Source: an uncultured Alphaproteobacteria bacterium (GTDB taxonomy: Bacteria > Pseudomonadota > Alphaproteobacteria > HIMB59 > GCA-002718135). From it: DNA of 61,920 nucleotides. Positions within the stretch are counted from its first letter, which is position 1. Every line of letters starts with the position of its first letter. The notes beneath the pieces were generated by a model, which worked only from the letters and a program-made list of their open reading frames with translations, did not search any database and was not told the origin of the DNA. The stretch spans positions 1-61,920 of the forward strand of contig CACJSL010000004.1 in NCBI GenBank assembly GCA_902596065.1. Reading direction: 5' to 3'. The position numbers and the translations under genes are program-made. This document shows positions 27,013 through 59,626 of this stretch, piece by piece.

Positions 27013-27582
27013 ATGATCAAAATAAATCTAGGTTCTGGTGATAAAAGAATAGATGGATATGCTAATTTAGATAAGTTTGACACCTTTAATCCAGAGTATG
27101 TTCATGATTTAGAAACCTTTCCTTATCCTTTCAAAGATAACGAAGTATCTAATATTATGCTGTCTCATGTTCTAGAGCATATTGGACAAAATCCAGACAT
27201 TTTTAATCATATAATGAAAGAATTATATAGAATTTGTTGTCATGAAGCTGAAATAGATATTATAGTTCCACATCCAAGACATGATAATTATTTATCTGAT
27301 CCCACCCATGTAAGACCTATTACTGCTTTAGGATTAGAACTTTATGATTTAGAAAGTAATGCTCGCTGGATAAAAATTAATGCCGCGAATACCCCTTTAG
27401 CTATGATTCATAAGGTAAATTTTAAAATTATAAATACAGTACATTTTTTAGAAGAAAATTATGATAATTTATATAAAAAAAATAAAATTTCAAAAGAAGA
27501 CTTAGAATATCATATCAGACATTATAATAATGTTATAAAACAAACTCATTATAAGCTTAAAGTAATAAAAGAAAATGGTTAA
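27013..27582 (+). CDS. SAM-dependent methyltransferase-like protein
   Basis: INLGSGDKRIDGYANLDKF ... VSNIMLSHVLEHIG. Confidence 0.7.
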   Translation: MIKINLGSGDKRIDGYANLDKFDTFNPEYVHDLETFPYPFKDNEVSNIMLSHVLEHIGQNPDIFNHIMKELYRICCHEAEIDIIVPHPRHDNYLSDPTHVRPITALGLELYDLESNARWIKINAANTPLAMIHKVNFKIINTVHFLEENYDNLYKKNKISKEDLEYHIRHYNNVIKQTHYKLKVIKENG

Positions 27583-56867: not shown

Positions 56868-57903
56868 CTTAATGAAAATATATAATGATTTTGTATCAAA
56901 TAATTTTATTAGTTATGATGAAGATCAAATTAAAATTTTAAATATTTTTGAGGAAATTTGGAATCAAAATCAAAAAATTAACTTTTTTTTAAACAAAAAA
57001 AAACCTAAAGGCATATATCTTTATGGCCAAGTAGGTATTGGAAAAACTTTTCTAATCAATTTATTTATTAATAACATTGAAAAATCAAAAAAATTTCACT
57101 TTAATCATTTTATGATTAACTTACATGCATTTGTTAATAATCACAGTAAAAAAGATTTTGCCTTAGAAATATATGTAAAAAAACTTTCTCAAAAATATAA
57201 AATTATATTTATTGATGAATTACATGTTTTTAATATAGTAGATGCATTATTATTAAAAAAAATATTCTATTTTTTTCAAAAATATAAAGTTTTTATTGTT
57301 ACCTCTTCAAATTATATTCCCAAAGACCTATATAAAAATGGTTTACAAAGAGAAGATTTTATTCCGTTTATTGAACATATTAAAAATAATTTTAAAGTTT
57401 TACACTTAGAGAGTTTTGAAGATTATAGACGACAAATGCTTAACCAGGCAAAGACTTACTATAGTCCAGTTAATAATAAAACTATTAGTGAATTTAATAA
57501 ACTTTTTGATCGTTTTGTAGATAAGGGAGAAATACATATAAGAAAAATTAAAACTAAAAGCAGAACTATACGTCTAGAAAAATGTACAGCGAATATTGCT
57601 TATTGTGAATTTTCTGAACTTTGTATGGCTAATTTAGCCCACGAAGATTATAAAAATATTGCGAATGAATTTAGTATTTTATTTATTAATAAAGTTCCAG
57701 AATTTTCAGATTCTGAATCTGATCAATGCAGAAGATTTATTAGCTTAATTGATATGTTGTATGAAAAAAAATGTTCAGTAGTGATATTGGCAGAAAAACC
57801 AATAAACAGCTTATGTAATATACAAAAACTAAAAATTGAGTTCAAGCGAACAGCTAGTAGATTATATGAAATGACAATTATAACTTCTGAAAACAAATGG
57901 TAA
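56857..57903 (+). CDS. zapE: AFG1-like / ZapE cell division ATPase
   Basis: KGIYLYGQVGIGKTFLINLFI, IIFIDELHVFNIVDALLL, FIPFIEHIKNNFKVLHLES. Confidence 0.9.
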   Translation: MKNNLMKIYNDFVSNNFISYDEDQIKILNIFEEIWNQNQKINFFLNKKKPKGIYLYGQVGIGKTFLINLFINNIEKSKKFHFNHFMINLHAFVNNHSKKDFALEIYVKKLSQKYKIIFIDELHVFNIVDALLLKKIFYFFQKYKVFIVTSSNYIPKDLYKNGLQREDFIPFIEHIKNNFKVLHLESFEDYRRQMLNQAKTYYSPVNNKTISEFNKLFDRFVDKGEIHIRKIKTKSRTIRLEKCTANIAYCEFSELCMANLAHEDYKNIANEFSILFINKVPEFSDSESDQCRRFISLIDMLYEKKCSVVILAEKPINSLCNIQKLKIEFKRTASRLYEMTIITSENKW

Positions 57904-58889
57904 AAAAAGTAATTTATATTTTTAGCTCTTTGATATTTTTTATATTTATCATTTATATAGCTGCTGGTTTTTACTTAGCTAATACTATACTAAAAATTGA
58001 TCCCTCATGCGGATTACATGAAGGTGCTTTACCTAATACATGGTCAACATTAGTAGATCATCATGAATACTCAAATGTTAACAGGAGCATCCTTAGAAAA
58101 AATTTTCCTTTTAAAAATTATCATATTGATGATTGGCAGGCAGTTTATTTTTCTTCTAGAGAAAAAGATATTAAAATAAGTGGATGGTTATTTGACCACC
58201 ATAAAAACCAACCAATTGTAATAATAGTTCATGGATTATTTCCCAATGGCAAATGCAAACCTGAGTCAAATCTTTTAGCAAGCTTATTAATAAAAAATAA
58301 TATTAATGCTCTTACAATTGATTTAAGAAATTATGGAGATAGTACTACTGTTAGTAATTATGAAAATTTAGGATTAAGTGAATATAAAGATGTTTTAGGG
58401 GCTTATGATTTTTTAGTAGAAAATGGATTTAGGGAATCTTCTATTGGCTTACTAGGAATTTCTTTAGGAGGAACCTCAGTTATATTTGCTGGAAAAGAAG
58501 AACCAAACATTAAAGCTATTTGGCTTGATAGTACTTTAGCAGAATTCAAAATGATTTTAAAAGATGAAATTGCTCGCTATGGATTTTCTCATGATTTTGG
58601 GCCATCAGTAAGTTTTGCAGGAAAGTTTTTAACAGGAATTGATCCAACGAAACTATCACCAGCATTTTCTTTAACTAAAACTCAAAATTATTTTTTTACT
58701 CATGGAGATAAGGATGAAAGAGTATTAATTCATCATTTTGATTTTTTTAAAGAATATATAAAAAAGAATAATATCAAAGCAAAATTCTGGCTTGCAAAAG
58801 ACTCATATCATGTTGATGCAATGTTTAAATACCCAGAAGAATATGGAATAAAATTAAAAAATTTTTTTGAAGCACATTTAAATAACTAA
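57897..58889 (+). CDS. Alpha/beta hydrolase
   Basis: PIVIIVHGLFPNGKCKPESN, SIGLLGISLGGTSVIFAG (GxSxG), C-terminal SYHVDAMFKYPEEY. Confidence 0.85.
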   Translation: MVKKVIYIFSSLIFFIFIIYIAAGFYLANTILKIDPSCGLHEGALPNTWSTLVDHHEYSNVNRSILRKNFPFKNYHIDDWQAVYFSSREKDIKISGWLFDHHKNQPIVIIVHGLFPNGKCKPESNLLASLLIKNNINALTIDLRNYGDSTTVSNYENLGLSEYKDVLGAYDFLVENGFRESSIGLLGISLGGTSVIFAGKEEPNIKAIWLDSTLAEFKMILKDEIARYGFSHDFGPSVSFAGKFLTGIDPTKLSPAFSLTKTQNYFFTHGDKDERVLIHHFDFFKEYIKKNNIKAKFWLAKDSYHVDAMFKYPEEYGIKLKNFFEAHLNN

Positions 58890-58890
58890 A

Positions 58891-59038
58891 AGTGCCGGAC
58901 TCGCCTTCACCAGTTTGTACCTTGGCAGACACTTCTCTAGTTTAGACAAAACTCTAATACATCATCCGGCGGGAATGATTGTAAACTGTATCTCGGCGTT
59001 CCTCCGAAGCTAAGAAAACGAGCTTTTTATCCGGCATT
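58891..59038 (+). ncRNA. Candidate structured non-coding RNA, class unassigned
   Basis: GC-richer than its flanks, no long ORF, closed by AGTGCCGGA...TCCGGCATT; nested CTCG/CGAG and CAGTTTGTA/TGTAAACTG (with flanking U) helices; G.U pairs favour the + strand. Confidence 0.5.
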
Positions 59039-59257
59039 ACCAAATTACTTTCAAACTAGAAATTATTCAAGAAATAAGGAAAAAAAGATTAGTTAATTTG
59101 ATTAAGTTATTAGAATTTAAGCCAAAATTTATAATATCCACAGATTTATCCACATTAATTACATAAATTGATTATAGTCTAAAAAGGGATTTTTTTTTGA
59201 ATTTCTCTAAAAAAAGAATACTTAAAAGTTAGAATATATATTTTTAATTTTCAATAA

Positions 59258-59626
59258 ATGATCGATAATAGACCTTTATCCCCACATCTAAGTATTCACA
59301 AAAAGGTATTAACTGCTGTCTTTTCTATTTTTCACAGATTAACTGGCATTTTTTTAACATTAGGTTCATTTTTTCTAGTCTTTTGGTTTTTATCAGTTTT
59401 AATTGGAGAAAATTTTTATAATTATTTTCAAATTGTTTCTTCAAATTTAATTTTTAAAGTAATTTTATTTTTTTGGACATTGGCATTTTTTTATCATTTA
59501 TTTAATGGTATTCGCTATTTATTCTGGTCTTTTAGTTTGGGAATGGATTTAAAAACAGTTTACCTATCAGGTTACATAGTTTCATTATTAACGATTATTG
59601 CCACAATCATAGTCTGGTATTTATGA
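59258..59626 (+). CDS. sdhC: Succinate dehydrogenase cytochrome b556 subunit
   Basis: RPLSPHLSIHKKVLTAVFSIFHRLTGIFL, FYHLFNGIRYLFW. Confidence 0.94.
   Translation: MIDNRPLSPHLSIHKKVLTAVFSIFHRLTGIFLTLGSFFLVFWFLSVLIGENFYNYFQIVSSNLIFKVILFFWTLAFFYHLFNGIRYLFWSFSLGMDLKTVYLSGYIVSLLTIIATIIVWYL

Follow-up and report, generated by a model that had tools for sequence, protein, structure and literature searches.

A candidate family-restricted small RNA encoded opposite sdhC and predicted to pair with the marR translation start in uncultured Alphaproteobacteria

Little is known of the small RNAs of streamlined marine bacteria, and a short intergenic island in the AT-rich genome of an uncultured, marine-type alphaproteobacterium raises the question of whether it encodes one, on which strand, and what such an RNA might do. 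The window (the whole analysed stretch of 61,920 nucleotides) contains a G+C-rich island of 148 nt in the intergenic region between two genes:

57897-58889: alpha/beta-hydrolase gene, left neighbour of the island
59258-59626: sdhC, right neighbour of the island

Its sequence and coordinates are as the first-pass annotation had given them, and its reading as a structured RNA outside the known classes holds: Rfam and ARAGORN (tRNA/tmRNA) are both empty at the island, with no match to tmRNA, SRP RNA, RNase P RNA or known riboswitches, and an Rfam scan of the window and the homologs left the locus without a match at either the gathering or the E-value threshold. A Flavo-1 hit (E 0.92; 16.9 bits, where the cut-off is 42) falls in flanking A/T-rich DNA and was taken as chance. 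A repeat or mobile element was rejected, given the single full copy in the RNA's own genome. The small hairpins drawn from the letters are present in the island, and the outer helix AGUGCCGGA/UCCGGCAUU with CUCG/CGAG is seen in the plus-strand fold; the further helix proposed, CAGUUUGUA/UGUAAACUG, is absent from the minimum-energy folds of both strands. Folded as a single sequence, the island does not differ significantly from shuffles (z -1.60 on the plus strand, -1.94 on the minus strand). Its conservation among relatives is what sets it apart from chance.

A BLASTN search of 100 relatives recovered homologs in 49 of the 60 same-family genomes, with E values from 1e-10 to 1e-83. A covariance model, R1, matches 80 of the 111 genomes of the family and misses none of the 10 with a completeness of 90% or more. 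In all homologs examined there is one full-length copy per genome at a fixed site opposite sdhC; sdhC is divergent in all loci examined, and the hydrolase gene is convergent with the RNA in nearly all. BLASTN gave nothing convincing in the sister family f2 (the best hit is a 31-base piece, E 9e-4), where R1 matches none of 52 genomes. Across 388 genomes of the class, R1 found family members only, and a second model, R2, found family members plus four matches at E 0.04-0.1, the best of which (G416) overlaps an unrelated coding sequence and was discarded. A core-motif pattern search of the order also left f2 empty, a weak negative because its gap limits missed most g7 copies as well. By this distribution, the putative sRNA is a structured RNA restricted to the family; the literature searched contained no earlier description of it.

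The features that bear on its strand are as follows:

58888..59036, minus strand: sRNA gene, located by BLASTN and covariance model, with ends inferred from the promoter and T-run
59065..59070, minus strand: -35 element TTGAAT; TTGAA(T/A) lies 5' of almost every homolog
59042..59047, minus strand: -10 element TAATTT; a -10-like hexamer or close variant, with the 17-nt spacing conserved

The first-pass annotation had favoured the plus strand while pointing to a minus-strand promoter, TTGAAT-N17-TAATTT, and nearly all relatives have this promoter, its spacing unchanged. Expression from it should yield a transcript that starts about 7 nt past the -10 element at GCCGGA, near 59036, and should finish with UCCGGC followed by a U-run (58891-58888); a U-run 3' of the closing stem exists on the minus strand. 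The consensus energy of alignment A2, with covariation included, is -25.8 kcal/mol on the minus strand versus -17.6 kcal/mol on the plus strand, and hairpin P5 (listed below) has two invariant pairs that read as G.U on the minus strand but would become C.A on the other. All of these features (promoter, U-run, the better consensus fold, the invariant G.U pairs) point to the minus strand, and we take this to be the strand of the functional RNA, a well-supported reading that overturns the earlier preference; plus-strand transcription was set aside because of promoter, terminator and fold. The island coordinates first given are nearly right, and the likely transcript extends on the minus strand from near 59036 down to near 58888.

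The interval between the sRNA promoter and sdhC holds other conserved elements. A DnaA-box-like pair (TATCCACA, TTATCCACA; window 59135-59154) is kept as at least one site in most genera and is lost in part of g7, and a T-run/TTGAAATTCTGCAAAAAAAATATAcTTA block (window ~59185-59240), conserved just 5' of sdhC in several relatives, is possibly an sdh promoter or regulator site.

A compact conserved structure adjoining a metabolic operon might suggest a cis-acting leader or riboswitch. However, the minus strand meets the 3' end of the convergent hydrolase gene and sdhC is divergent, so no gene lies directly downstream to be controlled, and we find a cis-acting element scarcely credible.

The consensus fold of the minus strand comprises a closing stem and four inner elements:

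59029..59035, minus strand: P1 closing stem, 5' arm GCCGGAU; 4 of 7 P1 pairs with double-sided changes, 100% of cells paired
58894..58901, minus strand: P1 closing stem, 3' arm AGUCCGGC, followed by ACUUUU
58948..59023, minus strand: P2 (ACUC/GAGU type), enclosing P3 and P4, from single-sequence folds
58991..59017, minus strand: P3 hairpin, core GC-UUC-GGAG-GAA-C-GC, with GGAGGAA invariant
58961..58979, minus strand: P4 hairpin with a CCGCC loop; one outer pair switches UA/CG/AU
58910..58940, minus strand: P5 targeting hairpin, CUAG-AGAA-GUGUCU-GCCA-AGGUAC-AAA-CUGG (or -CUAG)

Compensatory changes, which the first-pass annotation had proposed to seek by alignment, are present on this minus-strand fold. 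In alignment A2, which draws most of its related sequences from a single genus, 98.6% of cells at the 32 consensus pairs are standard and 7 pairs show double-sided changes; none of 500 shuffles reached the observed pairing or double-sided counts, and slid structures were only 27-44% paired. Variants of P1 include GCC/GGC and GUC/GAC, and in G004 GCUGAGUAG/CUACUCAGC; its 3' arm together with ACUUUU is a probable intrinsic terminator. P2 aligns poorly, and different sequences form it in several single folds, for example AAGUAAUG/CAUUACUU in G007. The lower-stem pairs of P5 show little covariation because they hardly vary at all. A structured RNA is thus well supported by the alignment.

The size of the RNA and its closing stem had led the first-pass annotation to speculate about a divergent 6S RNA, that is, a promoter mimic that binds RNA polymerase. 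No 6S RNA (RF00013) was detected in 30 relatives (G000-G017, G060-G071), although control genomes gave hits, so a 6S gene elsewhere in the genome offers no argument against the idea. Against it, even permissive thresholds brought no Rfam match to 6S at the locus, and the consensus lacks the long rod and central bubble of 6S RNA; P1 surrounds separate hairpins whose loops are conserved, and one of these hairpins contains a strongly conserved stretch that is exactly antisense to a gene start. We therefore regard a 6S identity as highly improbable. The same 30 relatives were searched for Hfq (PF17209), which defines the host of an Hfq-dependent sRNA: 30 of 30 were negative, with controls such as E. 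coli and Caulobacter detected. This suggests that any pairing is independent of Hfq or proceeds via another chaperone.

The gene start in question emerged from the BLASTN results, in which query interval 44-59 had a second recurring match in genome after genome, the start of a marR gene:

58923..58938, minus strand: 16-nt segment of P5, AGAGAAGUGUCUGCCA, the exact complement of the marR start UGGCAGACACUUCUCU
G000:C5, ~27316-27331, minus strand: marR start site UGGCAGACACUUCUCU, on a contig other than that of the sRNA

The gene encodes a MarR-type protein of 150-155 aa (Pfam PF01047), and its 3' end overlaps lysK (class I lysyl-tRNA synthetase). Its mRNA starts as AUGGCAGACACUUCUCU, and the complementarity spans the start codon and codons 2-6. 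With its putative promoter and terminator and a predicted target on another contig, the sRNA is predicted to be a stand-alone gene. In several genera, genes for a 2Fe-2S ferredoxin-like protein and a pyridine-nucleotide oxidoreductase (ferredoxin-NADP reductase-like) precede marR-lysK on the same strand, and a divergent heme A synthase gene (ctaA) adjoins that cluster (L025, L026, L027).

Both partners were obtained in 37 genomes, and the 16-nt pairing is kept across this set, with one mismatch in G028. Among family members in a search of 24 relatives, the 11-mer GGCAGACACTT occurs only in the sRNA arm and at the marR start, plus one G003 hit; its reversed control gave zero hits. Extra sites of the 11-mer in G003, G060 and G064 lie inside unrelated genes, and the G003 hit was counted as chance. 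Codons 2, 4 and 5 of marR show no synonymous change (GCA 51/51, ACT 50/50, TCT 51/51), and codon 3 is GAC in 45/50, whereas GAT accounts for ~95% in the rest of the gene. None of the other conserved four- or six-fold codon columns of marR has a diversity below ~0.15. The codon data indicate that the start site is constrained at the nucleotide level. Where the site does vary, in the mRNA (GAC>GAT, GAC>GGC, ACT>GCT) or in the sRNA (GAGAAG>GAGAGG), pairing is retained as G.U; the G028 sRNA breaks one pair by an A.C mismatch within the pairing region.

Predicted energies set the marR start apart from other gene starts. The RNA and its own marR start form a duplex of -46.6 kcal/mol, whereas 64 gene starts of the window used as controls average -21.8 (sd 6.6), with a best of -41.0; the cofold gain is -16.3 for marR vs -9.5 for the best control gene start. 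Duplexes in twelve other genomes range from -39 to -49. The plus strand, for its part, matches the marR mRNA start letter for letter, as well as part of the AGTTTGTA upstream of it, and could in principle serve as a mimic of that start (a sponge or a shared protein-binding site) or as part of an sdhC leader. Given the strand features set out above, a functional plus strand is very unlikely.

Directly upstream of marR, two TTTGTATACAAA palindromes abut the start codon (G000:C5 ~27331-27375, L023), in nearly all family genomes. Their arrangement is, we infer, that of typical MarR-type operators, and suggests that marR may be autoregulated by its MarR-type product. Because the palindromes sit directly before the start codon, the marR leader is probably only ~10-15 nt long and lacks a Shine-Dalgarno sequence. 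Right 3' of the start, codon 8 is GAG in 51/51, so that a UUCUC/GAGAA hairpin is kept.

Genome G007 (genus g5) provides a natural control, in which scaffold and regulator are present and both pairing arm and site are absent, in a single genome that is 85% complete. Its marR ortholog has the same palindromes, but its start reads ATGGAAAAAATTCAT and the pairing site is missing. Its syntenic RNA opposite sdhC is ~217 nt long and has P1, P2, P3 and P4 without the GUGUCUGCC arm:

L157 2995-3063 (G007:C15): divergent RNA match, with the P3/P4 scaffold and the third arm replaced

The R2 match there scores 42.4 bits (E 4e-8), with G007 itself among the sequences from which R2 was built. The duplex of this RNA with its own marR start is at background level (-17.6). 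Arm and site are thus missing together, and the complementarity to the marR mRNA appears to be evolutionarily maintained, given its presence in 37 genomes, the variants that keep wobble pairs and this co-absence; the comparison supports both the complementarity and its co-conservation with the marR start.

We consider it probable that the locus encodes a trans-encoded sRNA of ~150 nt whose pairing at the marR translation start would, most likely, repress marR(-lysK) independently of Hfq. An arm exactly complementary to the marR start makes control of its translation the likely role. P1-P4 would form a scaffold and P5 would display GCCA in its loop, which could nucleate on AUGGC of the marR mRNA; extension would then give a 16-bp duplex across the start codon and codons 2-6, blocking initiation and opening the early UUCUC/GAGAA hairpin. 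A block of initiation is the most likely outcome, as the leader is short and without Shine-Dalgarno sequence and the duplex would open the hairpin. Levels of the MarR-type regulator would fall, possibly along with those of lysK through the overlapping stop and start. Repression rather than activation is expected from the position of the pairing on the start codon. The position of the sRNA divergent to sdhC might hint that its trigger is linked with respiratory state. Against pairing with marR as the function, the 16-nt match could in principle have arisen once, long ago, by coincidence or duplication and have been retained for a different reason, and without detectable Hfq ordinary sRNA action is less routine.

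P3 and P4 are conserved beyond what a scaffold needs and persist in G007 without the marR arm. It is possible, if on balance unlikely, that the RNA acts in trans with marR as one of several targets, its GGAGGAA and CCGCC loops acting on other mRNAs or a protein, or that it activates marR by opening the hairpin or protecting the short-leader mRNA. However, BLASTN secondary hits contain no second recurrent mRNA site, though short seeds would escape such a search, and start-codon pairing usually represses. A rather doubtful further reading is that the sRNA is modular and Hfq-free: a constant P3-P4 scaffold, kept at one chromosomal site, would carry an exchangeable targeting hairpin, locked to the marR(-lysK) start in most genera and replaced by different hairpins in g5 (G007), and the scaffold loops would have a conserved role of their own.

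By these comparisons the candidate sRNA is previously undescribed, and its predicted mRNA partner is strongly supported. Comparative genomics alone has led here to a family-wide RNA and a specific co-evolving mRNA partner in genomes without detected Hfq, and with the partner identified the pairing mechanism becomes directly testable by reporter. The sRNA has no sequence match to any named sRNA family; several known systems resemble it in part. GsrN of Caulobacter, on which Hfq has an effect, activates katG, and its C-rich loop pairs with an mRNA leader in which no clear ribosome-binding site is seen (PMC5869019). The present RNA would likewise be an alphaproteobacterial sRNA with a pairing loop and a target leader without a clear ribosome-binding site, but Hfq was not found here, and its comparison with GsrN covered Rfam, where it has no match. 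In Methanosarcina mazei, sRNA162 masks translation initiation of a transcription-factor gene on a two-gene mRNA (PMC3510493). Masking of a regulator gene in a two-gene mRNA is likewise predicted here, although sRNA162 is archaeal and uses a single-stranded linker rather than a hairpin arm; the likeness proposed is one of mechanism. Other sRNAs, those of the five-codon window, pair with the start and first codons (Bouvier 2008, cited in PMC7769764). The present RNA resembles them in its antisense segment, which spans the start codon plus codons 2-6 in a single mRNA, and in having its own promoter and a terminator-like end; here, in contrast, no Hfq was found in relatives and a 16-bp pairing is kept across genera. 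According to PMC7769764, OmrA and OmrB of E. coli repress fepA by disrupting an early-coding stem-loop, much as the conserved marR hairpin right 3' of the start would be opened by the predicted duplex, but the pairing here also covers the start codon.
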